From: a virus
IMG/VR virus record: IMGVR_UViG_3300027974_000119
Location: 1-29,340 of that record
Direction: 5' to 3' (one strand)
DNA length: 29,340 nt
Both the position numbers and the translations under genes were made by a program. The notes below the pieces were generated by a model. That model was given only the letters and a program-made list of their open reading frames with translations, had not been told where the DNA came from and made no database searches. Shown piece by piece: positions 3,508 to 17,863 of the stretch. Every line of letters starts with the position of its first letter. The stretch's first letter is position 1.

Positions 3508-4089
3508 TTAATAATCGTTGCAATCAGTACAATCGCCTCTTCTACGTCTATACTTGTTAGCTAAATTGAAGCTTGAATTGGTTTGCAATCCACTAAAATA
3601 CGGCGTTCCTTTGTCGGGAGTTATACCATCTAAGAAATCAAAACTATTATACGATGGATAATCGCTTAAATTGTTACGCAAATATGTAGTCATCATTTTG
3701 GTATAATTTTCAGCTACACTACGCACCTCATTTTGTAAGAATTTCAAGGCTTCCAAATCAATAGATTGACCGCTTTCGCTATCATTATTCATGATACTTT
3801 TATTAAATACTTTGTACTTTAAAAACGGCAAAGCATGGTATAAAGCATAATTACAAAGCATCGCACCTATAAAGTCATCAAGTATCTTTTTGTTTGGGAT
3901 TGTTAATGTGTTATTGGTAATTTGAGTTTGTAATTCTTGATAAAACGTAGCTCCTAAGTAATTTTGCAAATAGATATCTTGCGCCTGTAAAATAAACGGT
4001 TGTAAATCGTCAGGGCTTACTGATTGATGAATTGATGTATATGATTTTAGTTTCGTTTCAGAAACAAATAGTACGTTAGTTATTGCCAT
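3508..4089 (-). CDS. Head-tail connector / head completion protein
   Basis: A 193-residue, mostly helical protein directly after the portal gene, sharing one base with it (TAATG junction). The N-terminal part (LKSYTSIHQSVSPDDLQPFI, then AQDIYLQNYLGATFYQELQ) resembles the head-tail adaptor proteins of Bacteroidota phages, which bind under the portal ring. The tail is basic, Cys-containing and Asn-rich (YRRRRGDCTDCNDY). The role is inferred from this recalled similarity and from the portal-adjacent position. Confidence 0.65.
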   Translation of the reverse strand: MAITNVLFVSETKLKSYTSIHQSVSPDDLQPFILQAQDIYLQNYLGATFYQELQTQITNNTLTIPNKKILDDFIGAMLCNYALYHALPFLKYKVFNKSIMNNDSESGQSIDLEALKFLQNEVRSVAENYTKMMTTYLRNNLSDYPSYNSFDFLDGITPDKGTPYFSGLQTNSSFNLANKYRRRRGDCTDCNDY

Positions 4090-5213
4090 TATTCTATTGT
4101 TGAAGTTGTTATTGTTGTAGGTTCGATAATAGTTGTAGGCACAATGTAAAGGTCGGTATTATATCCACTATTTAGCATCAAATTGTTGAATACTCTTAAC
4201 ATGCTTTTCTGAATTGGTTTAATACAAGTCCCAATAAAGTGACCATAGGCCACCGCCAATTCATCTGCATTAGAGCTAAAGCCAGCGCCACCATTGTAAA
4301 GGCCCAATAATAACGGACTTGTAATTCTATGACCTGTTAATATTCTCGTTGTTATTCTAGTTTCTAAAGTAGTGTAATAATTATCGTTAGTACTTGTTAT
4401 CGGAGTAACCTCGGGAGCGTGCTCTTTATCTTGACTAAATGCAACGAATGCCTTACCAGCGTTTTCCGTACCTCTATAAGCCATTGTTAATTCGTCATAA
4501 ATTTCTTTTCTTTCTTCAGGTGCTGGTATTCCATTATTTAAGCTAATAAACAAAGAAGGATTCAAACTATTTGCAAGATTCGAGATGTGAAATTTACTTA
4601 CTTCAATATCTATTTGAATATCATTGATTGAACCAGCATACGTTGGCAAAGGATAATAGATATTGCCAGGTTCATAATCGAACGCATACAATATTTGCGA
4701 AGGTTGTTCGATTGACAATGTAGGGTTGTATGTAGCATATTGTGTTGGCTTATATTTATTAGAGTTTTCCCAATTTGTAGAATAAAAATATTCTTTTGGT
4801 GTATCGTCTCCTGGTTCAATTTTACCGCTTCTTACTTTCGTGAAATCTAAATGATAAATTTCGCTAATTGTATTACCATCGTTGCTCCAAATAATGTTCA
4901 TTGCATACCCACCGAACGTGATATAATCCTGTGCGCATTTCTCAAACACATCGTTCCAACTATCAATCGGATTCGCACGCACTAAAACGTAATTTAAAGC
5001 CTCATCTGTGGTCTTTAATCCGTTTCCTATGGTAGCGTCTATCTTTGATTGTATAGCCGTTCTATTAATCGCTGAACGTAGAAATAAGCTCGCTATAAAT
5101 TGAGGATATAAATTATCCTCTCCGTAGCTTATCCACTTTTTTGAGCCACGCTCCGAGAAGGTCGGTAAATTTATTTGAATTTGTGAAATCGAATTGAATG
5201 CAAAATTGTTCAT
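4089..5213 (-). CDS. Portal protein
   Basis: This 374-residue protein probably forms the dodecameric portal through which DNA is packaged and ejected. Portal-like features are an early WISYGEDNLYPQF segment, AIQSKIDATIGNG, a middle helical and beta stem region with GGYAMNIIW and FHISNLANSL, and a late segment LLGLYNGGAGFSSNADELA with a following helix. This resembles PBSX/SPP1-type portals found in Bacteroidota phages, here somewhat short. The C-terminus is Thr/Ile-rich (TTIIEPTTITTSTIE). It lies after the capsid gene rather than next to the terminase, which is unusual, and is coupled to the connector gene. Confidence 0.8.
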   Translation of the reverse strand: MNNFAFNSISQIQINLPTFSERGSKKWISYGEDNLYPQFIASLFLRSAINRTAIQSKIDATIGNGLKTTDEALNYVLVRANPIDSWNDVFEKCAQDYITFGGYAMNIIWSNDGNTISEIYHLDFTKVRSGKIEPGDDTPKEYFYSTNWENSNKYKPTQYATYNPTLSIEQPSQILYAFDYEPGNIYYPLPTYAGSINDIQIDIEVSKFHISNLANSLNPSLFISLNNGIPAPEERKEIYDELTMAYRGTENAGKAFVAFSQDKEHAPEVTPITSTNDNYYTTLETRITTRILTGHRITSPLLLGLYNGGAGFSSNADELAVAYGHFIGTCIKPIQKSMLRVFNNLMLNSGYNTDLYIVPTTIIEPTTITTSTIE

Positions 5214-5219
5214 ATAGTA

Positions 5220-5417
5220 TTAAATATCTTTTTTAGCGTTTTTTCGCAATGAAATAATTTCGTAAATATACTTAATACTTACTAAAATAGATGCAAAAAT
5301 TGAAACTATGTAGAATACGGACTTTAGAGCTTCTGGTAAGCTAGTCAAACTAACTCCAAAAGTTGTAACATTAAGGATGTTAACAGGTTCTTTTAATGTG
5401 TCGATTATTGTCTTCAT
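5220..5417 (-). CDS. Small membrane protein, 65 aa, upstream of portal
   Basis: The protein has a polar N-terminus (MKTIIDTLKEPVN), one long hydrophobic segment from about residue 34 to 52 (FYIVSIFASILVSIKYIY) and a basic tail (LRKNAKKDI). Residues 15-28 are weakly hydrophobic and may form a second, shorter segment. Small proteins of this shape recur in Bacteroidota phage late operons. A holin-like or membrane-anchoring role is possible. Its ATG overlaps the preceding stop by one base and it ends 6 bases before the portal gene. It competes with the 2672-2893 protein as a holin candidate. Confidence 0.6.
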   Translation of the reverse strand: MKTIIDTLKEPVNILNVTTFGVSLTSLPEALKSVFYIVSIFASILVSIKYIYEIISLRKNAKKDI

Positions 5418-5776
5418 TAGCTTACATAAATTACGCTTTCGCTTTTTTCATTATCAGATATATATTCAATTTTTTGTACTTCTGTATCGCCAGCTAAAAA
5501 TATTTGACCACGATTATAAATTACATTAACACTATTTCTTATTTCATAATCATAATTACCAAATGGTAATCCATTCAAATGATAATCGCCTGTAATTCCA
5601 TCGTTAATATAAATGGTAAATTCTGCAAATCTTGTACTATTTGTTTTGTTTTGTAATTTACAAATGTAATCAAGTCTATCAAATCCATTGAATAAATGAA
5701 TTCGATAGTTATTCATATTTTGTGTGAAATCTCCGTAAATTATAAACTCGTTTTTTCCTTCTATTAGATTAATCAT
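5417..5776 (-). CDS. Hypothetical structural protein, 119 aa, beta-rich
   Basis: The sequence is almost wholly beta-type, with Tyr/Asn/Gly-rich turns (NNYRIHLFNGFDRLDYICKL, GDYHLNGLPFGNYDYEIRN) and a repeated strand pattern ending in VIYVS. It resembles small virion-associated beta proteins common in Bacteroidota phage late operons, but no named family is recognised. Its ATG lies only 6 bases beyond the T-run of a terminator hairpin, so its expression is probably below that of the capsid and tail-tube genes. No signal peptide or membrane segment. Confidence 0.62.
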   Translation of the reverse strand: MINLIEGKNEFIIYGDFTQNMNNYRIHLFNGFDRLDYICKLQNKTNSTRFAEFTIYINDGITGDYHLNGLPFGNYDYEIRNSVNVIYNRGQIFLAGDTEVQKIEYISDNEKSESVIYVS

Positions 5777-5781
5777 GACAT

Positions 5782-5810
5782 AAAAAAAGCGGCACGATTC
5801 CTCGCACCGC
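5782..5810 (-). terminator. Terminator/attenuator between tail-tube gene and next gene
   Basis: A 9-bp stem, GCGGCACGA (5789-5797) with TCGCACCGC (5802-5810), has a 4-base loop and two G-T pairs. On the minus strand it is followed by seven T (5782-5788). It lies 23 bases after the stop at 5833 and 6 bases before the next ATG at 5776. It probably reduces read-through after the abundant structural proteins. Confidence 0.85.
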
Positions 5811-5832
5811 TCGTATTTAAAAGGTTAATTGA

Positions 5833-6408
5833 TTAAAGAGCTGCATTAAATTCAAATCCACCTATTGTCGCAGTGCCACCAGGTTGAACTGAACGAATAG
5901 CATTAGAACTTGTTAAGCTTATTGCTGGCATAGGATCCGCTTCCATAGATTGGAACGTGAATGTATATCCGTTCATATCTCCGATAGCTTGACCGCCTTC
6001 ACCTACCATTGTAGATAAAACCGCACCACGAACATTACCTAATAACCAATATTGATCCATGTTATCTAAAACAATAACACGAATCTCACGATTTTTTGCA
6101 AGTAACATGAATTCGTTTCTTTTTGTAACGTCTCTTTTTGAGATGTTAACGCTTAATTCAGTCGTATAGAAAACAGTTCCATTTGCGTTTGAAATAGTTG
6201 CCGTTTCTGTTAATTTCGCTGTATCTTTTGCGAATTTATATTCAAAGAAATTACCACCAGTTCCATTAGCTATAGTAACCTCACCAGCTATTACTGCTTG
6301 AACATCAAATGGTATATTTGCTCCCTCAGCATAAACATAGATTGAACGCACACCACCTAAGGCATTCATGCAATCTAAAGGGATTGTTTGTAAAATACTA
6401 CAAGCCAT
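5833..6408 (-). CDS. Major tail tube-like protein
   Basis: This 191-residue protein is proposed to be the tail tube subunit. Seen: GNFFEYKFAKDTAKLTET, NGTVFYTTELSVNISKRDVT, REIRVIVLDNMDQYWLLGN and GDMNGYTFTFQSMEADP, a beta-rich pattern found in tail-tube proteins of Bacteroidota siphoviruses (recalled, not searched). It follows the major capsid gene and is followed by a terminator, consistent with a highly expressed virion protein. A decoration or head protein cannot be excluded. Confidence 0.65.
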   Translation of the reverse strand: MACSILQTIPLDCMNALGGVRSIYVYAEGANIPFDVQAVIAGEVTIANGTGGNFFEYKFAKDTAKLTETATISNANGTVFYTTELSVNISKRDVTKRNEFMLLAKNREIRVIVLDNMDQYWLLGNVRGAVLSTMVGEGGQAIGDMNGYTFTFQSMEADPMPAISLTSSNAIRSVQPGGTATIGGFEFNAAL

Positions 6409-6437
6409 AATTTATTTTAAATTTAAAAGTTATAAAT

Positions 6438-6458
6438 AAGGGGCTTTTTACACCCCTT
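6438..6458 (-). terminator. Weak stem-loop after the major capsid gene
   Basis: AAGGGG (6438-6443) pairs with CCCCTT (6453-6458). One extra G-T pair and a 7-base loop are possible. The following minus-strand sequence is ATTTATAAC, not a clear T-run, so termination would be weak. It may instead protect the capsid mRNA 3' end. Confidence 0.5.
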
Positions 6459-6466
6459 GTTTTTGA

Positions 6467-7393
6467 TTAAAGATTTGATACTACTTGTGATGCATAAACC
6501 GCAGTTCCTAATCTGAATTTAGCATTGAAATTCATGATATCATCCGCTTCATTGTAGTAGAATTTGAATGTATCCATTTCATCTAATAAACCAGTTCCAA
6601 AGAAAATGTATTTTTTAGGAGCTAAGATTACACGTGCTGGATCATTGATACCAGGTGCTGCGAAAACTGTGATGTTTGTACCTGGGAAAACGAATGAGCT
6701 AGGAGCATTAACACCACTTGCATTTGATACTTGTGCAAATTGTCCGATAACTGAAGCGCCTGTGTTAATCAATGCAGCAACCAATGCTTGATAGTTAGCA
6801 TATGAAGTATACATGATTAAATCATCTTCAGTTTGTAAAGCTGGCGTTAATGAACCAACGTTTAACCAAAATTCAGCGATAGCTGTTGAAGTTGTCCATT
6901 GTGTGTAAGCACCAGCTGAATTGATTGAACCTTGAGCATTTTCAGTTTGATATAATAAACCTGTTAATGTAGCTCCGTCTCCTTGCCAAATTGTATTCTC
7001 AACATACTTAGCGATATTAGCCATTTTGTTGTTTGCGATTAATTCAGCAAAAGGTACTGTCTCTTGTTGAGCACCCGCACCTAATTGAGAAGATGTCCAT
7101 TTGCTTCTTAAATCTTCAGGGCACATTTGCTCTTTTAACATTTTAGAACCTACAACTAAAGGAATTTGAGAGAATACTGTTGCGTTTGAACCTACTTGGC
7201 CCGCTGCAAATCCACAAGTTGCATCTTTGATGTCAACTGTTGAATTCATTAAGTTAATAGATGAAGTTCCCGCTGTTTTACCCGCTTCGATTGTTACGAA
7301 TTCGGTAGTAAATGATTTTAATAATGCTGCACTAATTAGGTCAGTACTTAATTGGTCAGTATATGCTGGTAATGATGATACGTTAAATGACAT
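6467..7393 (-). CDS. Major capsid protein
   Basis: A 308-residue protein resembling major capsid proteins of Bacteroidota phages (HK97-like fold expected). Seen: N-terminal SLPAYTDQLSTDLISAAL, a G/A/S-rich beta region (GKTAGTSSINLMNSTVDIKD), the segment MCPEDLRSKWTSSQLGAG, then ANIAKYVENTIWQGDG, a central MYTSYANYQALVAAL helix, and a late FFGTGLLDEMDTFKFYYNEA followed by FRLGTAVY. It is preceded by a scaffold-like gene with a 3-base gap and, one gene further, by an XkdF-like protease, a classical protease-scaffold-capsid series. It should assemble the icosahedral head. Confidence 0.82.
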   Translation of the reverse strand: MSFNVSSLPAYTDQLSTDLISAALLKSFTTEFVTIEAGKTAGTSSINLMNSTVDIKDATCGFAAGQVGSNATVFSQIPLVVGSKMLKEQMCPEDLRSKWTSSQLGAGAQQETVPFAELIANNKMANIAKYVENTIWQGDGATLTGLLYQTENAQGSINSAGAYTQWTTSTAIAEFWLNVGSLTPALQTEDDLIMYTSYANYQALVAALINTGASVIGQFAQVSNASGVNAPSSFVFPGTNITVFAAPGINDPARVILAPKKYIFFGTGLLDEMDTFKFYYNEADDIMNFNAKFRLGTAVYASQVVSNL

Positions 7394-7396
7394 AGT

Positions 7397-7900
7397 TTAT
7401 TTTTTTAATTGGTTTTTAATTTCTTTTAATTTTTCTAATCTTGAAAATGTTGTTTCGATAACTTCGTTATCAGTTTTTTTAATTGGTGCAACCGCTGGCG
7501 CTTTTGAAAATGAGTTTACTCTTTCTTTCAAAGTAGCGATTTCAGTTCCTAATTCGCTAATTGATTCATAAACTAATTGCAAAGGATCAACCGATGGAGC
7601 TTCGCTAGATGCTTCAATCGATACTTCTACTGGTGCTTCAGGTGCAATTTCTTCAGGCATTTCAGCTTCTGGCATTCTTACTACTTCAGTAATTACGCCT
7701 AGATCATCTGTCATGAAGATAGTCCCGTCTACTAATGTGTGTTCACCAGCTCCAACTGGGTTATTTTCAGCGTCAAAAACTGGATAACCTACTTCTAATT
7801 TTTCAGTAGATAATTCAGTTCCATCAACTAAAATTAATTTCTCTAAAGACACTTCTACGCCTAGTAGTGCTCTAATTTGGTTTAATTTAATCTTGTACAT
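7397..7900 (-). CDS. Scaffold-like protein ahead of the capsid gene
   Basis: This 167-residue protein has an N-terminal beta-rich half (about 1-75, with DGTELSTEKLEVGYPVFD and HTLVDGTIFMTDD). An acidic Pro/Glu/Ala/Ser linker follows (about 76-105), then a C-terminal coiled-coil-like helix (SISELGTEIATLKERV and later SRLEKLKEIKNQLKK). Acidic linker plus basic C-terminal coiled coil next to the capsid gene fits a scaffolding protein cleaved by the upstream protease. A decoration protein is the alternative. It ends 3 bases before the capsid ATG. Confidence 0.6.
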   Translation of the reverse strand: MYKIKLNQIRALLGVEVSLEKLILVDGTELSTEKLEVGYPVFDAENNPVGAGEHTLVDGTIFMTDDLGVITEVVRMPEAEMPEEIAPEAPVEVSIEASSEAPSVDPLQLVYESISELGTEIATLKERVNSFSKAPAVAPIKKTDNEVIETTFSRLEKLKEIKNQLKK

Positions 7901-7950
7901 ATTGGTATATATTTAATTTAAAGTTTTTAACAATTTATGTGAATAACTAT

Positions 7951-8934
7951 TTATTTATTATCGGGTAAGAAACCATGGTTTGGCTGGTCATATGGAGCCG
8001 TACCCGCAAGCCCTGGCGCTTTACCTTTATTAATTACTTTCTCTTTTGCATTAATGTAATATTTACGCCAAAAATGTTTGCAATTCGCACCACCCGAATA
8101 TTTCCATATATCATAAATATCCGTACCACGTGGCCCGAAGCCAGGGTTAACTGGCGCCTGTGCGATTGCTCTAATTTCCTCAAATGTAAAAAACGTTTCT
8201 AATGATAGCATGGTTCTACAAAAGATTCTTTCTGCAGGTGGCCCATCGTACTTGTAGACCGTCAATCCTTCTTTATATCCTTGTGGTGGGATAAAATTTT
8301 CATCGTATTCTACCACATCAAATTCTTCCATTTCACTTGCTTTGATACCTAAAGTCTTCGCAAGTTCAATGGCTTTATCTTCGTCAAATTCCATGATTCC
8401 TTTTATCTTGTTGAATAACTCTTCATTCTCATATTCTTCAAATACACCTTCAACACTAAAGCCTTTTAACTCTCCGTTCTTAACTCTTTTCCATGTTTCT
8501 TTGTCTTCTACTTGCATGCTTACCATCCACGTTCCAACGGGCACATCGTAGCCATATTTCTGAATAGCCTTATCGTTTTCATCTTCTACTATCCACGATT
8601 CATAAACGTAGGTACCCGTTTTCTTAACATTCTCATGGTCTTGATTGATGTCATTTGTGCGAGCTTCTTTCATGAATTTTTTAGCAATCTTTAAAATAGT
8701 TTCTTTGCTAAATATTACATCGTAGTAATTCCCATTATCGTCAACTCGAATTATTTTTAAATCGGGTATCATTGCTGGCCCAATAACAATTTGCAAATCA
8801 TTATCAAACCTGTATTTTTCAGTTTCTTTTTTGAAGTACATGAAGTCTACTTCGATGGCTGGCTCCTCAACAAGTGAAATTTTATCCACTCCACCTTCAT
8901 CGCTAATTACTAATTCTATTAATTTTCTATTCAT
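7951..8934 (-). CDS. XkdF-like prohead serine protease
   Basis: Probable head-maturation protease of the XkdF/PBSX type. The catalytic-type His is His100 in NQDHENVKKTG, and the nucleophile-type Ser is Ser160 in LKGFSVEG. Between them is the family-typical YVYESWIVED and VPVGTWMVSMQVED sequence. At 327 residues it is long because residues about 220-327 form an extra domain with DIYDIWKYSGGANC and KHFWRKYY, a Trp/Cys/His-rich pattern also seen in minor head proteins. It lies directly after the tape measure (one-base gap) and before the scaffold-like and capsid genes. The C-terminal domain may anchor the protease to the procapsid. Confidence 0.8.
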   Translation of the reverse strand: MNRKLIELVISDEGGVDKISLVEEPAIEVDFMYFKKETEKYRFDNDLQIVIGPAMIPDLKIIRVDDNGNYYDVIFSKETILKIAKKFMKEARTNDINQDHENVKKTGTYVYESWIVEDENDKAIQKYGYDVPVGTWMVSMQVEDKETWKRVKNGELKGFSVEGVFEEYENEELFNKIKGIMEFDEDKAIELAKTLGIKASEMEEFDVVEYDENFIPPQGYKEGLTVYKYDGPPAERIFCRTMLSLETFFTFEEIRAIAQAPVNPGFGPRGTDIYDIWKYSGGANCKHFWRKYYINAKEKVINKGKAPGLAGTAPYDQPNHGFLPDNK

Positions 8935-8935
8935 A

Positions 8936-11362
8936 TTATAAACGTGCTATTTGTTTAAGTTTTAAATTGGCTTCAATTTGACTTGTCATTTCAGAAGCTA
9001 CTACATATGTCTTAAATATAGGATTTGCGTTATTTTGATTGCCAAACGCTACACCGCCACCCGCTTGATTGATATTTGATAATAAATTACCAAACATCGC
9101 AGTCGATTTTGCATTAATTACAGATTCACCATTTGATAAATTTGCAATGATAGAATCACTTGTTGAGGTTCCCATACCTTGAACCAATCCACCCGTTGCG
9201 AATTTGGATGGTGCTGTTTTGCCAGGGCTTTCTGCATCTGATTTTGTATTGTTAATTTCTGCTATACTTTTACTAGCTTGTGCAATGATTGAAGCAATAC
9301 CGATTGCACCGCTTGCCGTATTCAATGCCACTGGTGCGGCTGCTGCCGTACCGAATGAAAGTATAGATGCTGGATGTCCTGTAAACTTAGCGTTTGTTGC
9401 AAATGTAGATGCTATAATTGAAGCTATTGAAGCCGCCTTTTCTAAAACGATTCCACCGATTGCAGCTTCTTTACTATTGCCAGCTATTTGTTGTAAAAGT
9501 TGACCAGCTTGACCAGCTACCTCAATGCCTTTGTTAATCGTATAGTCTTTGTAATCTAATTCAGTTTTGGCAATTAATTTTTTTTGCTCTGCAATTTCTT
9601 TTTCGATTGCAATGGTAGATTCTCCATTTGCTTTTAATTTATCTCGTAAATCTTCATAATGCTTTAATACATTATTTTGCTGGTCTAAATTATCATTATT
9701 TTCTTGTTGAATTATTGCAACCGCCTTATTGTAATTATCCTCTGCAATTTTTTGTTTTGTTTCTGCTATTTGTTTGTCAATCTCAATCGTAGATTTTCCG
9801 TAATCTTCTTGAATAGTTTTTAGATGTTCGTAATGTTCTAATTCTTTTTGCAAACTAACTTCATAATTTGCATCTTCAAGATTCATGAATTCAATCGACT
9901 TATTATATTCAGCTTCTTTGTCGGTTTCAATAGCTTCCGACATTCTTTTTGTATTACTAAGGCTTTCTTCTTCTAATGCTTTTTTTCTTAAATTAAGGTC
10001 TTTTATTTGATTGATTTCTTCAAGCTTTCTTCTATGCTGTAATATAGCTTTTTTAGTAGCACTATCCGCTTCTAAATCTTCACGTTCTTTGATTGATAAA
10101 TTAAGGATATTTTTATCTTTTTCAGCTTGTTCTTTTAATCTTTGTTCTTCTTTTAATTGTGCATCTTTTTTCTTTTGTTGTTCTTCTTTTATTTTTCTAT
10201 CTTGTTCGTCTGCTGCTTCTTTATTTTTTCTTTTTTGTTCATCTGCTGCTTCTTTTTGAGCATTTGTTTTTTCTTGAGCTAATCCTACATTTAAATTCCT
10301 TTCAGCTGCTAAAAGTTGAGCGTTTGCATTTTTAACATCGTCAACTCTTAATTTATTTGTTTCATTATCAACTTTATATTTATTCTCAATAGATTTTAAT
10401 TCCTTTTCATTTTCTTCTATTCTTTTCTCAACATTTAAAGTCCAACCTCCTTGATTTTTAGTTTCTTGTAATTCAGCTTGTAATCTTGCAGCTAATTTTT
10501 TTCTTTCAACTATTTCTAGGTATTCAGCCAATGCAATTTCGTGAGTTGTTTGGTAATTCTTATTTGCTATTGATTGAGTTGCTTTTGCATTTGCAACGGC
10601 TGTTTTTAATATAGTAATTTCACCAATTCCTTGGGCTCTCATTAATCTATATTGATATTCCTCATCTAACTTTTTTGCCTCAATAGATTTCTTTATTTCT
10701 TCATTATTTTTTTTAGTAGCTTCAGTATGTTTTTTCAAAGCTTCAGCCGCTTCGTCAATTTTAGGCTTTGATTTTTGGAACATTTCAATTAACACATAAC
10801 CAGCCGCAACCAATCCCGAAATCGCTAACATTGTAGCACCAAGAGGACTAGCAGCCATTGCCGCATTCCACAGCCTTTGAGCTGCTGCACCTAATTTTTG
10901 TACTATAATGCTTTCTTTAATTACCGTATTTAATCTTTTAAAGCTATCAATACTTTCACCCAATGCTTGAACACCGCTTGCAAATGCCATAGCACTTTGA
11001 ACTTTTAAGATAGCTTGTTCAACATCTTTGCTTTTAGTTCCAAGTAATCCCATTACACCAGTAACCGCACTAAATCCACCAGCCACACCTGTAAGCGCTC
11101 CACTCAATGCTTTGAATTTAGCATCGGGATTGAATGCATCTGTTAATCCTTTAGCATCTCCCATTCTATCTTTTAAGATAGCTGCTGCCTTAGCCGCTTC
11201 TACGGCTTCTTTAGATGTCGCTCCAAACTTTTCTGAAAGTATGGCTACGTTTGCCGTTGCTTCTTTAAGTTGTTGTCGTAAACTCTTTACACTTTCATCT
11301 ACTTGATTCAATCCACTTAGGTCGGATGTGGTATTAATTCCTATATTTATTTCGTTTGCCAT
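8936..11362 (-). CDS. Tape measure protein
   Basis: An 808-residue protein expected to set tail length and help DNA entry. Seen: an N-terminal helical region (VDESVKSLRQQLKEATANVA, then ATSKEAVEAAKAAAILKDRM). A Gly/Ala/Val-rich hydrophobic part follows at about 83-190 (LTGVAGGFSAVTGVMGLLG; MAASPLGATMLAISGLVAAG). Very long Lys/Glu/Gln coiled coils run from about 200 to 610. A second Ala/Ile-rich hydrophobic region at about 620-710 precedes a Gly/Ser-rich end (FATGGLVQGMGTSTSDSI). This layout is typical of siphovirus tape measures. The length would suggest a tail of about 120 nm by the usual 0.15 nm per residue rule. Confidence 0.88.
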   Translation of the reverse strand: MANEINIGINTTSDLSGLNQVDESVKSLRQQLKEATANVAILSEKFGATSKEAVEAAKAAAILKDRMGDAKGLTDAFNPDAKFKALSGALTGVAGGFSAVTGVMGLLGTKSKDVEQAILKVQSAMAFASGVQALGESIDSFKRLNTVIKESIIVQKLGAAAQRLWNAAMAASPLGATMLAISGLVAAGYVLIEMFQKSKPKIDEAAEALKKHTEATKKNNEEIKKSIEAKKLDEEYQYRLMRAQGIGEITILKTAVANAKATQSIANKNYQTTHEIALAEYLEIVERKKLAARLQAELQETKNQGGWTLNVEKRIEENEKELKSIENKYKVDNETNKLRVDDVKNANAQLLAAERNLNVGLAQEKTNAQKEAADEQKRKNKEAADEQDRKIKEEQQKKKDAQLKEEQRLKEQAEKDKNILNLSIKEREDLEADSATKKAILQHRRKLEEINQIKDLNLRKKALEEESLSNTKRMSEAIETDKEAEYNKSIEFMNLEDANYEVSLQKELEHYEHLKTIQEDYGKSTIEIDKQIAETKQKIAEDNYNKAVAIIQQENNDNLDQQNNVLKHYEDLRDKLKANGESTIAIEKEIAEQKKLIAKTELDYKDYTINKGIEVAGQAGQLLQQIAGNSKEAAIGGIVLEKAASIASIIASTFATNAKFTGHPASILSFGTAAAAPVALNTASGAIGIASIIAQASKSIAEINNTKSDAESPGKTAPSKFATGGLVQGMGTSTSDSIIANLSNGESVINAKSTAMFGNLLSNINQAGGGVAFGNQNNANPIFKTYVVASEMTSQIEANLKLKQIARL

Positions 11363-11371
11363 AGTTTAATT

Positions 11372-13546
11372 TTAAGGTATTATTGATATTGATTCTCCCA
11401 CTCTTACTAACTCCACTTTACAACTTGTTTTTTTCCCAACTTGATAATCGGTTATTTTGTTAACCATAAACCAACTATCTTTTATAAATATTTTATCATT
11501 AAATCTTAAATCAAAAATATTACTATAATCTAAAATGATATTCATTTCTAATATGCGCCCAAATGGATCGTATGTGAAGTTGTACCATTTTAGCCAGTAG
11601 TTGTTAAACAAGTCATTAATCGTTCTCATTGGGGGATTTGTAACCACTCCTGTAATAGGCCACAAAGGTGCTGAATTACGCCATGCAAGGTCGTCAAATG
11701 TAGTAGTATTAAAAATACTATATTGACTTACTAAAGGATATTCATTCCAATGAATAGTAGTATTCGCATCGTTTTTAATGTGCCATTCTAAAGGCGCTGC
11801 TACCATTCCATTGTAGTAAACTAATCTCAATTTTGGAACTATCGGAGTGCGCTCCGTGGTTGTATCTTTAGCAATGTGTGGGATTAAAAATTTAGCTGCA
11901 AGTTTTTGGTTTGCACTTGCGCTGGTTTGAGCGCTGGCGTTCCCAATCGGTAGCAATGGCGTAGGCGCAAATAACGATTGCGTTACTTTATTACCAACTA
12001 TATTTTCATTTTGACTATCAATGTCTAATTGTCCAAATGTTCGCTTAGTTGCTAACTGAAAATTGTAATTTACATAGTCACTATCTTCGTCATCTAAAAA
12101 AGTGTTTGACCTAGTTTGACTTTCAAACAATGGTTTACTTTGAATGTCAACATTACCATCTACTAAATCCGTCCAATCTCTTTGCGCTCCTTGTTCTACC
12201 CAATCCACCCACGGCGTAATTATGAAATGTTTTGATTTTGTTTTGGATGGCTCTAATACCAGGTTAAATCGTTCAATTATAGCCTTTAAAAAGTCAATAT
12301 TTTTAACGTTGTTTGGTAGGTAATTATTCAATACATTGATATTGTCAACCGTTGTATTTTGAGTTAGTGTAACATTCTCAATAGATGCAAGTCCTGGTAT
12401 TATTGATGGTGCATTTACTCTAAAAATAAGCTCATCACCAATTGCTGCTTGTGCATTGTAAATATTAAAAGTATGATTAAAAGTATATAGATAGTTTTGT
12501 ACTGGTGGCGTATATGTAAAACTTTGAGTTGCTATTACGGCTGGTATTGGTAAACTTAAATTGAATATTTCAATACTAAATGTAACTGGCGTAGTTGTAG
12601 CAAATTGTCTATAACCGCCTGCAATATTGAATGTAAAATAATCTACTAAAGGAGTTTGAAAGGTTAAAGGAACTGTGAAAACTGATGTGCTATTATTGAA
12701 TGAATTTGCCGTGTCATAAATCTCAAACGGCAATGCAATTTTTGTTATGCCTAAATTCAAACTTTGATTCGCATATCCTTTCGCTTGAAACTTAGGAGTT
12801 TTTCTATCTATCGCCGTATCGGTTTGTTCTGTAATTATATATTGACTTGTAAAGTCTGAACCGCTTAAAAAGTCACTCTCATATGTATATCCACTCCCAT
12901 CAAAAATAGCATCAAGTAAAACCTTAGCACGAATTACGGGCTTAAATTGTTCTACCGATAATGGGTTTAAATTACTTGTAAATCCTTTTTTTGAGTTAGT
13001 ACCATCAAATAAAGACAAAGTACTTTGAACTGGTCTTCCATCTAAGTAATCATAACCCCACTCAATCAAAGGATATATAATGTCTCCTAAAAATAAGTTT
13101 TTACTCCAACTATCTACAACGTTAACATAGCTTTTAACATGATTGTATGCTGTAAGGTTTAAGCTATTCATGAAACTCCCACCAATAGCTGCACTAAAGT
13201 CTGACACCTCTCCAAAAAAAGTAACCTCATATTCAACATTCCTATCACGATTGTTTGTGATTATGTTACTCAATCGAATACTACCAACGGCAATCGTCAC
13301 GTTGCTATCTTCAATGTATGATTCAATCTTTTTAGTTGCATCAAAACTTTGTGCATTGATGTTAAATGCACTCTTAAAAAACAAGTTATTATTTGCCGTG
13401 TTTGGTACTCTGAATGTTTGCGAATATGTCGATGGATTTGCAGTCGGTTCCATTATGTCAGCTACTGACATATTCAATTTTATAGGATTATTCTCGATTA
13501 AATCTAATAAAATAAATCCACTAGTAATTTTAACGTATAATCTCAT
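11372..13546 (-). CDS. Large tail/baseplate structural protein, 724 aa
   Basis: Likely a tail-tip or baseplate protein. It begins MRLYVKITSGFILLDLIENN and then NMSVADIMEPTANPSTYSQ, with FRVPNTANNN, a start seen in large tail proteins of Bacteroidota phages. The whole chain is beta-rich, Asn/Thr/Tyr-rich, with few charged helices. The last 100 residues (SNIFDLRFNDKIFIKDSWFM, VNKITDYQVGKKTSCKVELV) look like a folded terminal domain. It lies between another large tail protein, sharing one base with it, and the tape measure. Hub, distal tail and receptor-binding functions cannot be told apart here. Confidence 0.62.
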   Translation of the reverse strand: MRLYVKITSGFILLDLIENNPIKLNMSVADIMEPTANPSTYSQTFRVPNTANNNLFFKSAFNINAQSFDATKKIESYIEDSNVTIAVGSIRLSNIITNNRDRNVEYEVTFFGEVSDFSAAIGGSFMNSLNLTAYNHVKSYVNVVDSWSKNLFLGDIIYPLIEWGYDYLDGRPVQSTLSLFDGTNSKKGFTSNLNPLSVEQFKPVIRAKVLLDAIFDGSGYTYESDFLSGSDFTSQYIITEQTDTAIDRKTPKFQAKGYANQSLNLGITKIALPFEIYDTANSFNNSTSVFTVPLTFQTPLVDYFTFNIAGGYRQFATTTPVTFSIEIFNLSLPIPAVIATQSFTYTPPVQNYLYTFNHTFNIYNAQAAIGDELIFRVNAPSIIPGLASIENVTLTQNTTVDNINVLNNYLPNNVKNIDFLKAIIERFNLVLEPSKTKSKHFIITPWVDWVEQGAQRDWTDLVDGNVDIQSKPLFESQTRSNTFLDDEDSDYVNYNFQLATKRTFGQLDIDSQNENIVGNKVTQSLFAPTPLLPIGNASAQTSASANQKLAAKFLIPHIAKDTTTERTPIVPKLRLVYYNGMVAAPLEWHIKNDANTTIHWNEYPLVSQYSIFNTTTFDDLAWRNSAPLWPITGVVTNPPMRTINDLFNNYWLKWYNFTYDPFGRILEMNIILDYSNIFDLRFNDKIFIKDSWFMVNKITDYQVGKKTSCKVELVRVGESISIIP

Positions 13547-15009
13547 TAATTTATCTTTTGATTTTGGTTTAAGAATATCTCAAATTCCCCCTGTACTAAT
13601 TTTACTTGTTTTATATTCTTTGTTTTGTAGCTTGTTTGACCTATTCGAACGCTATAAGGTACCGCAACGTTATAAGCGCTATCATTAAAATAAGCAATAA
13701 CATTTGGGCTCTTTTGCAATCCTTCAAGTAAGTTAACTTCATCCTGTGTTAACCAATCCGTGTTCAATGTCCACGATGTCATTGCTTGCTTATTGTAGAT
13801 AACATCACCGCCTTTTGTTTGCAATGTGTATGCTGGTATAGATACGTAGGTAGGCACGGGACTAAGCTCCGACCAATTCATTGTTTCTTGATAGTAGTTG
13901 TCATTCGTAGTCGATGTTTCCTTCTCCATGAATGCAGTAAAGTTCATGTAATCTCGACCGCCTAAGTCATTTAACCAACTTAATCGAACACGAGTGTATA
14001 ACGTATCGCAATCTTCTAGCATTGTAAATCTACTAACTTGTGTAATAGGAATGTCTGGAATGCATCCATTACCACTTGCATGATTATACATTTGAACTTC
14101 AATATATTCACCTTCGCTCATTGTATATGACATACCCGTATTTATGTTAATCATATCCATCAAAGATACCAATCTACATTGCGCATGAAGTATATCAAAT
14201 TCAGCGCTTAATTGGTTACCTACTACGTCACTACATGAAAACTTTTGCGCATATCCCCATTGGGCACTTACTTCAATAGGTAAGTTAGTTACAATCGGAT
14301 TGTCGTACTTATCAAAGTAACTCAATACCATGAATGCAATATAACTATCGTCTAAGTTGTTTGGGTATTGAGTCCAATTTATATAAGACAATACATTCAT
14401 GTCATTATAATAAACCTTTTGTTTTAAAGGTGCATAATTTAACGGATATGCTAAGTCTGAATAAGCTATTGCATCACCCCAATCGTATGATTTTCCACGG
14501 GATGGTAATATCCCATAACCACCACTACCTAAAATTCCGTTTGACATTCCATCCTGTTGAAGTCTGAAATCTAAGCCACTATTCCATACATGCACTGGTA
14601 TGCTAAAATGATTTTGCACCGTTCTTGCAAATAGATAATAGTTTGGATTACCTATGCCACCCGTTCCATTGTATAAGACACCACCATACTCCTCACCACA
14701 AATTACAAACGCTCTTAAACTTGAATTGGTATTATCTGCAAAAATAAACGAATATAAACTTGTGTCAATCGTTGTCTCGGGTATAATATCATTCTTTAAA
14801 TTAGATTGACAAATTTGACTAATATCAACCATACCAGCACCGCTCGGGTTTGGTTTAACTTTTAATCTTATTTGAAATGTTGAATTTATATAAACATCAA
14901 ACACATAACTAAAATTTGGTTGACTTATTTCATCACTAGTAACACTCCATATAATCGGATTGTATGTTCCTTGTAGGTAAGATGGTGCGTAATTAATTGT
15001 TGTTATCAT
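13546..15009 (-). CDS. Tail structural protein, 487 aa
   Basis: A beta-rich protein starting MITTINYAPSYLQGTYNPII, with many aromatic residues (VFDVYINSTFQIRLKV, YLFARTVQNHFSIPVHVWN, GYGILPSRGKSYDWG) and no membrane segment. It ends with VRIGQTSYKTKNIKQVKLVQ and EFEIFLNQNQ. The pattern fits a distal tail, baseplate or adhesin component, but a specific family is not recognised. It directly follows the tail assembly chaperone gene; the -1 frame of that gene overlaps the first 17 bases here. It shares one base with the 724-residue protein gene. Confidence 0.62.
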   Translation of the reverse strand: MITTINYAPSYLQGTYNPIIWSVTSDEISQPNFSYVFDVYINSTFQIRLKVKPNPSGAGMVDISQICQSNLKNDIIPETTIDTSLYSFIFADNTNSSLRAFVICGEEYGGVLYNGTGGIGNPNYYLFARTVQNHFSIPVHVWNSGLDFRLQQDGMSNGILGSGGYGILPSRGKSYDWGDAIAYSDLAYPLNYAPLKQKVYYNDMNVLSYINWTQYPNNLDDSYIAFMVLSYFDKYDNPIVTNLPIEVSAQWGYAQKFSCSDVVGNQLSAEFDILHAQCRLVSLMDMININTGMSYTMSEGEYIEVQMYNHASGNGCIPDIPITQVSRFTMLEDCDTLYTRVRLSWLNDLGGRDYMNFTAFMEKETSTTNDNYYQETMNWSELSPVPTYVSIPAYTLQTKGGDVIYNKQAMTSWTLNTDWLTQDEVNLLEGLQKSPNVIAYFNDSAYNVAVPYSVRIGQTSYKTKNIKQVKLVQGEFEIFLNQNQKIN

Positions 15010-15714
15010 TTTTATTCTTTTGGTGGGCTAAAAAATTATAAGCCGTGATTAATTCTATTTTGGTAACTTCTTCGATTTTGAGGATGTCGTCTTTAGCAAG
15101 GTAGTAAATAAACGCATTCCAACCTCGAGCGCAACGGATGTCAGCACGTTCAAGATTTTCTTTTTCTTCTCCGCTTTCGGTTTCTCCGAAAAGTCCTTTA
15201 TAGCTCCTTTCAAGTTGCCCAATATATTTAAAAAAAAAACTGCCGTGTTTAATGCCACCTTAACTGGCATTTTTTCTGCAAATAATTCAGCACGAGCTTC
15301 AAACGTATCGGGATTAAATGGTTCTACTACGAAAGGTAATTTGCTTTTTAATGGTCTATAAAGTATAGCCATAATCTTATGTAGATTGAAATTTAATTTA
15401 GGATGGTTTTTTAATATGTCAATATCTGCCATCTCTCCAACGCTCAATTTCTTAACGTCTATTAAGCCATACGATATACCTTCAATAGTCACGATGTTAT
15501 CAATCGAACCATCTCCTAAATCAAAACAATTTTTTACAAAGTCATTCCAAATACCATCAAGTACATTCGCTGGTATTATTCTAATTTCTTCTATGTCGCA
15601 ACCACTAACAATACGGATAACTTCCATGCGGTCGTGAATACTTGCATCGTCTTTGATTAAGTCTGAAATCTCAATGAATTTCTTAATTGATATGCTGTTA
15701 ATTTTCTTTATCAT
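14993..15714 (-). CDS. Tail assembly chaperone with candidate -1 frameshift (two products)
   Basis: The zero frame runs 15714-15055 (219 residues). Its first part contains DIDILKNHPKLNFNLHKIMA followed by ILYRPL, and later FAEKMPVKVALNTAVFF, a pattern seen in phage tail assembly chaperones. At codons 159-162 the DNA is G, then ten T (15239-15230), then AAA. The -1 frame is open from 15259 to a TAA at 14993-14995, contains no ATG, GTG or TTG, and would yield a 240-residue product with the new end FKYIGQLERSYKGLFG and AKDDILKIEEVTKIELITAY. In the roughly 60 codons after the run, the -1 frame has about one third G/C at third positions, typical here. The zero frame has about half. Tail chaperones such as lambda G/GT use -1 frameshifting. 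A homopolymer sequencing error is the alternative. Confidence 0.7.
15228..15240 (-). promoter_or_regulatory. Candidate slippery site (G, ten T, A) in the chaperone gene
   Basis: Read on the minus strand the zero-frame codons are GTT TTT TTT TTA. Slipping back by one base on TTT codons keeps perfect pairing. A +1 shift would meet TAA at once (15230-15228), so only -1 slippage extends the protein. Ribosomal slippage and polymerase slippage on the T-run are both possible. Confidence 0.6.
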
Positions 15715-16151
15715 GATGTTGCTCTACTTGTTTTAGTTGTTACGCCTGTTAATAATTCCACTATGTCAGCTCCTACTGTTTTTTCAAGTTTGCTAGCGAA
15801 GTACTCGATTAACTCGGTTGCATCTGCGCTTAACGATGTCCAATATCTTGGCAATATTCCTTTGCCAGTATGACCTGGTTTCGGATTCCATTTAGGCATT
15901 ATAAATTGACTCATTCCATAGCTTGCTTTGTCTGCATTGCTATACGTTCCTAAATCCACGTACACGCCATAATAGATATAGTAAAATGACAATGCAGGGT
16001 TTCCGTTCTTAGTTACTACCTTATATCTTATCGACCGCTTTAGCTTACCAGTTTTTACTGGCGCTTGTGCCTTCATGATATTAAGTATTTCTTGGCCCAA
16101 TGATTCGAGCGCCTTAGTAACTTGTCTAATATATAACTTTTGCGGATCCAT
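15711..16151 (-). CDS. HK97 gp10-like tail/neck completion protein
   Basis: This 146-residue protein has the signature of the HK97 gp10-like family, which helps join head and tail: an N-terminal helix (YIRQVTKALESLGQEILN), then APVKTGKLKRSIRYKV, beta strands with FYYIYYGVYVDLGTYS, and a C-terminal helical part. It overlaps the start of the chaperone gene by four bases (ATGA) and shares one base with the upstream gene. Order gp10-like, terminator-like, chaperone is typical of siphovirus tail modules, although here the terminator-like gene comes first. Confidence 0.78.
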   Translation of the reverse strand: MDPQKLYIRQVTKALESLGQEILNIMKAQAPVKTGKLKRSIRYKVVTKNGNPALSFYYIYYGVYVDLGTYSNADKASYGMSQFIMPKWNPKPGHTGKGILPRYWTSLSADATELIEYFASKLEKTVGADIVELLTGVTTKTSRATS

Positions 16152-16621
16152 TAATTAAAAGGATTTTCGCAAAGTGTGAACGGACTAATAACCTCGATTA
16201 TAATTCGTGTTGTATAACCAGCCACGCTATTCACAAATGATTCGTCAAATATCATTGATGTCGTTGGTAATTGAATGTTATATCTAAATCCTTCCCAATC
16301 GGTAAGGTTAAATTTGCTTATTATGTCTCTTGTAATTTCTAAGCATTGAGATTGCGTTATTACTTGTAATTCTAAGTCATCTTTGCAAAGGTCAAATACT
16401 ACCATGTCAAACTCGAATTTAGTAGATTGACCATTCATTACTGCTGTGGATGGTACTAAGTGAACCGCAATGTATTCGTACGAATTTGTATTTGGCCCAT
16501 CGTTACCAGTCGGTTGCTCAATGGCGCTTATATCACCTACTCTAAACGACTTAACCGCCTTATGAGATAAGCACAATGTTTTTAAATCCTTAATTAATAT
16601 TTCGTATATAGAGCCTTGCAT
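16151..16621 (-). CDS. Tail terminator-like completion protein
   Basis: A 156-residue protein with an N-terminal helix (YEILIKDLKTLCLSH), strands (EYIAVHLVPSTA, KFEFDMVVFDLCKDDLELQV), a middle helix (CLEITRDIISKF) and a last strand (TTRIIIEVISPFTLC). The helix-strand order and the position next to a gp10-like gene fit a tail terminator or tail-completion protein. The family is assigned from context and recalled pattern. It lies 27 bases after the terminase large subunit stop. Confidence 0.58.
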   Translation of the reverse strand: MQGSIYEILIKDLKTLCLSHKAVKSFRVGDISAIEQPTGNDGPNTNSYEYIAVHLVPSTAVMNGQSTKFEFDMVVFDLCKDDLELQVITQSQCLEITRDIISKFNLTDWEGFRYNIQLPTTSMIFDESFVNSVAGYTTRIIIEVISPFTLCENPFN

Positions 16622-16648
16622 GGTTATAAATATATTTTATCTGTAAAA

Positions 16649-17863
16649 TTACATACCTTTTCGATAAAAACCATAAGTTCCTTTACTCGGATTGTCAAGG
16701 TTGTATATCACATTGTATCTAATAGCGTCTATTATGTGATTCCAGTTATCCACATATAGCTTTGAACCTTTGTTCAAATAACAATAATTGTTTAACTCTT
16801 TAGCTATGTTAGTGCTATTCGGTTCAACTATAATTTTCAAATCTTGCATTCGAACAATCCCGCTTTCAATCGTTCCTTTCTTAACCGCTTGGATGTTTAT
16901 CTTCTGAAATCTTAAATCATCAATCAATCTAGGCTCGGCGCTATCTGCTATAATCAAACCGCCTTTTGTCTTTTCAAGTAGCATCTTACTAAGCTCATGA
17001 GTCTTAAGCCCACGTTGGTAAATATGCTCTTTAACATATAGCAATTTGTTTTTAACATCAATAGCCACTTCAGCTAATGCATCAGGATCAATCGAGAATC
17101 CAAAGTCCATACCGAAAGAAGTTTGAAGATAGTTAGGATTGAACGTTCCAAACTCCCAATTAGTAAACACCACTCCATCGGCTTTCTCAAGCCAGCCACC
17201 CAAAATAACATGATTGTATTTGTCGGGATTATGTAACTTAATTTTCTCAACCTCTTGTAAGAAAGAAACGCCTAAATTTTTGATGTTATCCTCGTAGGTA
17301 GTATGTATGTATGTCGTATTGCCTTTCGTTCCGTTAAAGCCTTCTTTGATGCCTTCTTGTTCAAAAAACTTTCTATATATCCAATGTTCTTTTGTGGCAG
17401 GGTTTAAGATTAATATAATCCTATTTTGCTTATCGTTTGAACGTATTGAAAGGTTAATCTTATCAAAGGTCGATTCGTCAACTAACTCCTCGGCTTCATC
17501 TAGTACCCATGTTGTCACGCCTTGCAATGATTTGAGGTTTGCCGTTTGGTCACCACTCGAAGTCTTTAAGCCTTTAAAAAATATTTCACTATTTGAGTTT
17601 TTATTTTTTATTTCACTCTTTGATATACTGAATAGGTCCTCTAATTTTAACAGCTCTATTTTCTCTTTAAATTCAGGAATGATAGACAAGTGTGCCGATG
17701 TCATCGTTTGCCTTGTAAAGAGTATCTTATGTCCTTGTTCGAATGATAATAATGTTATGAACCTACCAACCTCGAATGACTTACCACTACCACGACCGCC
17801 CGTAATTACGAAATATCTACTTTTTGAACCAAGTAAATTCCATGTGTTACTGTGCCTCTCCAT
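16649..17863 (-). CDS. terL: Terminase large subunit
   Basis: The DNA-packaging motor: an ATPase plus headful or site-cutting nuclease. Walker A is TGGRGSGKS (residues 21-29), Walker B is TWVLDEAEEL with Asp122 and Glu123. The RNase-H-like nuclease shows Asp253 in GMDFGFSIDP, Asp307 in IIADSAEP and Asp379 in WNHIIDAIRY. At 404 residues it is of the usual size for the PBSX-type terminase group. Its start overlaps the small-subunit gene by 17 bases. The portal gene does not follow it; tail-completion genes do. Confidence 0.95.
   Translation of the reverse strand: MERHSNTWNLLGSKSRYFVITGGRGSGKSFEVGRFITLLSFEQGHKILFTRQTMTSAHLSIIPEFKEKIELLKLEDLFSISKSEIKNKNSNSEIFFKGLKTSSGDQTANLKSLQGVTTWVLDEAEELVDESTFDKINLSIRSNDKQNRIILILNPATKEHWIYRKFFEQEGIKEGFNGTKGNTTYIHTTYEDNIKNLGVSFLQEVEKIKLHNPDKYNHVILGGWLEKADGVVFTNWEFGTFNPNYLQTSFGMDFGFSIDPDALAEVAIDVKNKLLYVKEHIYQRGLKTHELSKMLLEKTKGGLIIADSAEPRLIDDLRFQKINIQAVKKGTIESGIVRMQDLKIIVEPNSTNIAKELNNYCYLNKGSKLYVDNWNHIIDAIRYNVIYNLDNPSKGTYGFYRKGM

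Follow-up and report, generated by a model that had tools for sequence, protein, structure and literature searches.

A putative tail assembly chaperone gene in a viral sequence of 29,340 nucleotides (IMG/VR record IMGVR_UViG_3300027974_000119, positions 1 to 29,340; this whole stretch of DNA is called the window below) very probably carries a programmed -1 frameshift with two selected C-termini, a judgement that leaves aside which machine slips. On comparative evidence, the frameshift is real and conserved, and its kind is already known from lambda G/GT. As far as aligned relatives can tell, the variant features are an invariant run of nine or ten T (T9/T10) and a stretch that codes in two frames for two tails, both under selection. 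The points that come from comparison are the invariant run, the invariant -1 relation, selection on both frames and the lack of an internal start in the -1 frame.

The G/GT frameshift is among the most widely conserved phage recoding events. In the usual picture, a G protein is accompanied by a version with an added T domain, the ribosome shifting near the end of G. The lambda-type gene lies between those for the major tail protein and the tape measure, and its two proteins, made in a fixed ratio, bind the tape measure and the tail tube and are absent from virions. The gene described here would encode a chaperone of this kind. Most products would be G-like, 219 aa long and ending in the zero-frame tail, and a fraction would shift by -1 at the T9/T10 run and end in the -1 tail, giving in the window a GT-like fusion of the N-terminal part and the -1 tail of about 240 aa. 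The -1 tail would be the conserved T-like part, while the zero-frame tail, kept open and constrained, would be more than filler. Both proteins would be made, and the tape measure and tail tube would be the targets of their chaperone activity.

The locus and its relatives

The gene lies on the minus strand at 15055-15714, with an ATG at 15714 and a stop at 15055-15057. Its 219-aa zero-frame product consists of a shared N-terminal part (residues 1-159) and a tail of about 58 codons after the T run. Codons 159-162 read GTT TTT TTT TTA and so place ten T at 15239-15230, where the first-pass annotation had reported them. An in-frame heptamer T_TTT_TTT, a candidate ribosomal slip site, occupies 15232-15238 and is overlapped by a second candidate, T_TTT_TTA, at 15229-15235. 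The -1 frame, which follows a TAA, is open from 15259 for 88 codons to a stop at 14993-14995, with no ATG, GTG or TTG anywhere within it. Its tail (14993-15238, minus strand; 81 codons and the stop) belongs to a conserved family (alignments A4 and A9). It spans the gap between 15055 and 15009 and runs 17 bases into the start of the next gene (13546-15009, minus strand, 487 aa), which has no family match among the Pfam and PHROG profiles. A slip into the +1 frame would end at once at a TAA on the run edge (15230-15228). At third codon positions, the G+C fraction of the -1 frame is 0.33, compared with 0.54 for the zero frame within the overlap and 0.29 for the upstream part. The start-less frame, the filled gap and overlap, the immediate +1 stop and the AT-rich third positions of the -1 frame relative to the zero frame had all been proposed from the sequence of the window, and each is borne out by the coordinates and counts.

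In the direction of transcription, the gene order is terminase large subunit (16649-17863, minus strand; PF04466, E 2.5e-35), an unknown gene, an HK97-gp10-like tail completion or neck protein (15711-16151, minus strand; PF04883, E 1.8e-6; phrog_5, E 6e-10), the frameshift gene, two unknown genes and the probable tape measure (8936-11362, minus strand; 808 aa), the third gene downstream, which PHROG tape-measure profiles match weakly (E 5.5e-5 and 9.6e-4). The module order across window 4089-17863 is unusual: terminase, neck, chaperone and probable tape measure are transcribed ahead of the protease and portal. Positions 448-517 of the portal-like phrog_33693 match the end of the protease-like gene, and the front of the profile hits another gene, about 2.7 kb farther along (window 7951-8934 and 4089-5213); the portal may thus be split, with its end fused to the head protease. 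Elsewhere, a 727-aa ORF at window 26113-28296 matches helicase profiles in its front and DNA methyltransferase profiles in its rear, and is possibly a helicase-methyltransferase fusion.

A search of IMG/VR with the ORF returned 28 loci, most of them 76-100% identical. All 23 that span the site have exactly T10, with 81-83 codons in the -1 frame; T10 is also present in L028, a partial locus. Alignment-based searches reached relatives at about 20-30% identity, with 80 matches kept per scan; one scan matched at least 588 stretches. A Winogradskyella MAG supplied two further relatives and Flavobacteriaceae genomes another two; genes of the isolated Nonlabens phages P12024L and P12024S are direct sequence relatives with T9. 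In total, profile searches with the N-terminal part and the -1 tail yielded 311 fetched loci with both parts, drawn from metagenome phages, Nonlabens phages and bacterial genomes and reaching down to about 20-25% identity, with some contigs fetched twice. A set of 174 representatives (T9 in 151, T10 in 23) was obtained by removing near-duplicates from the first 290 loci. One match in a Flavobacteriaceae genome (L310) was false, the sequence being an M23-peptidase-like protein.

In all 311 loci, the two parts stand in the -1 relation, with T9 at the junction in 238 and T10 in 73. Neither in-frame joining, nor any other slip site, nor a run of 8, 11 or 12 T was found among them. Reads with 8 or 11 T in the run, or homologues with the -1 end encoded in frame and no slippery run, had been named beforehand as observations that would speak against a frameshift. 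An in-frame version would have been expected to surface, because 80 of the loci were fetched with the -1 tail itself as the query (patterns for W-G-W and C-terminal parts), and these too contained none. A stop is reached in the +1 frame within 3-10 codons at 311/311 loci. The closing stops vary by clade, being TAG in TTTAGG, or TAA or TGA at the run edge.

The carrier group is a large, unannotated set of phages of Flavobacteriaceae-type bacteria, with host links given by the Nonlabens phages and a few Flavobacteriaceae genomes only. The annotation of P12024L (locus L062, 7001-7695) overlooks the frameshift: it lists gp40 and gp41 as separate hypothetical proteins and so leaves the -1 tail as a fragment of 55 aa. 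The P12024S counterparts, gp38 and gp39, are likewise annotated as separate hypothetical proteins.

Selection on the T run and the slipping machine

In a sequence this rich in A and T, composition by itself makes such a run unremarkable: 4.1 T10 or A10 runs are expected from dinucleotide shuffles of the window, and one is found. Other coding sequence gives a different picture. In 305 kb of other ORFs of these phages, with synonymous codons shuffled within each ORF for the expectation, T9 occurs 0 times vs 4.6 expected, T8 or longer once vs 13.8, and A9 runs 7 times vs 27.6. The run therefore stands above chance, being conserved as T9/T10 at the same place in 311/311 loci when T8 or longer is nearly absent elsewhere. 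Codon choice can also be compared. Immediately ahead of the two Phe codons, 127 of the 174 representatives have GTT, 38 CTT, 5 ATT, 3 TTT and 1 AGT, and in the same genes GTT makes up 36% of Val codons and CTT 16% of Leu codons. At 13 other [VLI]FF[YWFLS] sites, a run of 9 is present in two. Taken across the relatives, these patterns indicate that the T run is under selection. As a separate observation, the coding sequence contains fewer A and T homopolymers of at least 8 than its synonymous shuffles do, the deficit being about 14-fold for T8 and about 3-fold for A8.

Slippage by polymerase or by ribosome would give nearly the same protein. The evidence leans slightly towards RNA polymerase slippage, with one extra U in the mRNA, and ribosomal -1 slippage is almost as likely; the two may also act together.

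Slippage by RNA polymerase alone, which has a little less than an even chance of being the whole explanation, would produce transcripts with 10 or 11 U instead of 9 or 10, from which the -1 product arises by ordinary translation. The run has at least nine T in every one of the 311 loci, within the range for transcriptional realignment, which takes a homopolymer of at least 8-9 A or T. RNA polymerase slippage has been published on runs of 9 A or T (PMC5009743) and at Tn with n > 8 (PMC3711429), and reaches 20-30% at Shigella mxiE, as quoted in PMC4256274. Like the present gene, Shigella mxiE, Thermus dnaX (A9) and Citrobacter tssM (A11) have a homopolymer of at least 9 A or T and give two C-termini from one gene (PMC5009743, PMC3711429, PMC4256274). 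Unlike in those cases of realignment, an in-frame ribosomal heptamer is also always present here. Polymerase slippage is also favoured by two loci, L197 (AGT) and L309 (GGT), whose preceding codon has a base other than T in second position and whose run reaches further at the 3' side, making up for the T missing at the other end (Fisher p 0.014, from two events). The avoidance of T8 or longer runs in other genes and the lack of detected stimulators point the same way. Closure of the +1 frame would cut short the products of other slips, although this closure is perhaps a by-product of the conserved TTTAGG. Against polymerase slippage, the direction is always -1, which such slippage need not keep; dual coding would, however, also fix the direction. 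A literature search of titles and abstracts returned nothing on whether the RNA polymerase of Bacteroidota slips at runs of this kind.

The competing account, in which the ribosome alone shifts by -1 at U_UUU_UUU (or U_UUU_UUA in the window's clade) and the outer T follow from the amino acids, is itself somewhat below even probability. It is possible because every relative carries T_TTT_TTT in frame, a heptamer of the X_XXY_YYZ form of -1 ribosomal frameshifting. This heptamer covers all silent sites of the T9 run, which would make polymerase slippage unneeded. The flanks are nearly always a hydrophobic xTT codon before and a T-starting Tyr, Trp, Leu, Phe or Ser codon after, and an invariant -1 relation is what ribosomal shifting predicts. 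For an HK97-like chaperone cluster, measurements put -1 frameshifting at 6-7% (PMC3711429), and its conservation among long-tailed phages has been described (PMC5009743). Ribosomal slippage alone fits less well with a run that is never shorter than nine, with the compensation in two lineages described above, and with the scarcity of stimulators. Folding of 70-base windows detected no downstream hairpin, with a mean z of about -0.2 as in control windows (pseudoknots lie outside such folding), and an SD-like upstream motif was present in only 14/174 representatives. Frameshift stimulators are usual but not essential, and SD sequences are used only weakly by Bacteroidota.

Two reading frames after the run

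Past the run, both frames are selected over about 60 codons, in the window the dual-coded stretch at 15058-15229 (minus strand), as indicated by the openness of the zero frame and by synonymous differences. In a close set of relatives, pN/pS in the overlap is 0.22 for the -1 frame, 0.62 for the zero frame and 1.97 for the +1 frame, and synonymous diversity is 0.21 in the overlap vs 0.55 upstream. Across 2161 pairs of 60-90% identity, codons for the same amino acid differ at a frequency of.421 in the N-terminal part,.206 in the overlap and.322 after the zero-frame stop, and the overlap has less synonymous change than the upstream part in 99.6% of pairs; as pairs and representatives share descent, such counts are non-independent tests. 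A wobble-position change in the -1 frame falls on the second position of a zero-frame codon, so a constraint of this kind is what a coding zero frame would produce. Selection for RNA structure is the less probable cause, given that folding revealed none. The -1 tail is conserved around a W-G-W-Y core, and its conserved part starts right at the run.

The zero frame stays open for at least 50 codons past the run in 173/174 representatives. If only the -1 protein were kept, 10 would be expected to do so under the codon usage of the N-terminal part, or 39 under the -1 frame's own usage. Two C-termini under selection are thus indicated by a zero frame that is kept open and by synonymous change that is halved in the overlap, and the overlap would code for two tails at once. 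The earlier proposal of two alternative C-termini agrees with this. Its contrast with lambda holds in part: the zero frame does run on for about 60 codons under selection, but the -1 product also adds a conserved tail, as in lambda.

That only the -1 tail matters, with the zero-frame tail open by accident, is unlikely. The zero-frame tail does evolve faster, as its higher pN/pS shows; it is predicted only as a low-confidence helix, and it shortens to 27 codons in the Nonlabens phages and 42 in L309. Such accidental opening is contradicted by the excess of open zero frames over either expectation and by a synonymous constraint that is strong in the overlap and relaxes past the zero-frame stop. 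A combined reading, in which RNA polymerase slippage makes the GT-type chaperone, the zero-frame tail has a function and a partner of its own and the slip switches between two dual-coded C-termini, is tentative, with the balance of probability somewhat against it.

It is very improbable that the -1 frame is a separate gene reached by an internal start or by re-initiation. Part of it is annotated as a short gene in the Nonlabens phages, but the window's -1 frame offers no start codon, ATG, GTG and TTG are absent through codon 40 in 119/174 representatives, and conservation begins right at the run. Phase variation or an assembly error, with a true or alternating gene of 8 or 11 T in one continuous frame, can practically be dismissed: homopolymers are prone to both, but lengths of 8, 11 or 12 T are missing from 311 loci from many independent assemblies, including P12024L/S and bacterial genomes, and both frames are selected.

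Identity of the protein and meaning

The zero-frame product and the -1 tail were folded separately. The N-terminal part is predicted at a pLDDT of about 90, with a helix at residues 151-177 that passes through the slip point and continues into the zero-frame tail, where confidence falls to low. The -1 tail model is helical, with a pLDDT of 85-90 around and after the W-G-W-Y core and modest confidence overall. Among solved structures, no sequence relative was found. The HK97 tail assembly chaperone 2ob9 is the highest-ranked in the VIA fold comparison, though the match is weak and a hint only (Z 3.0 over 60 residues at 12% identity, model residues 1-68), and Foldseek of the zero-frame model against the PDB gave nothing significant. 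Matches in BFVD are unnamed phage proteins, a Nonlabens protein and, lower down, a 'tail assembly chaperone' of ctCpR1 (E 0.046, probability 0.99). For the -1 tail model, no PDB match with Z of at least 2 was found among the 5 chains compared, and other fold matches were non-significant and to unnamed viral proteins only.

Profile libraries give no relevant Pfam match for the product, and no Pfam or PHROG family names it a chaperone. The window's product matches PHROG 32199 (E 1.2e-5), a group of unknown function, as do 89/90 members of the gene family described here. The frameshift is unannotated there and in the related Nonlabens genes P12024S/L gp38/gp40, which have T9. A match of the DnaD-like PHROG 2514 to the -1 tail (E 0.007) was judged to be chance. 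Gp10 of Flavobacterium phage 6H, a weak fold match to the N-terminal part, showed no run of this kind; its frame seems to be broken, or its organisation different. Its gene (L328, 10352-10927) ends beside a 300-base stretch without an annotated gene, in which other frames continue, which may point to another frameshift chaperone or to an indel from sequencing.

Tail assembly chaperone is the best inference for the frameshift gene product, because it lies before the probable tape measure, has the frameshift architecture and shows the weak fold match to the HK97 chaperone. The first-pass annotation had used this name outright; position, architecture and fold are in its favour, but a library match is absent.

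As in lambda gpG/gpGT and its counterparts in long-tailed phages, a common N-terminal part is followed by a -1 shift that adds a C-terminal part, the gene lies upstream of the tape measure (a probable one here), and the -1 frame has no start of its own. The lambda slip sits near the 3' end of G (PMC5009743). Unlike in lambda, the slip site here is an invariant T9/T10 run and the zero frame continues for about 60 codons under selection, giving products of similar length with different tails. A description of the frameshift in this group was not found in the literature searched, which mostly left out subscription papers.

In summary, the family comprises at least several hundred phage contigs and is without a name in the libraries searched. 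Its annotation loses the T-like part, which in the Nonlabens phages is reduced to a fragment. The group is a natural setting in which polymerase and ribosome slippage could be cleanly told apart in Bacteroidota phages, and raises the question of what role the G-type tail plays.
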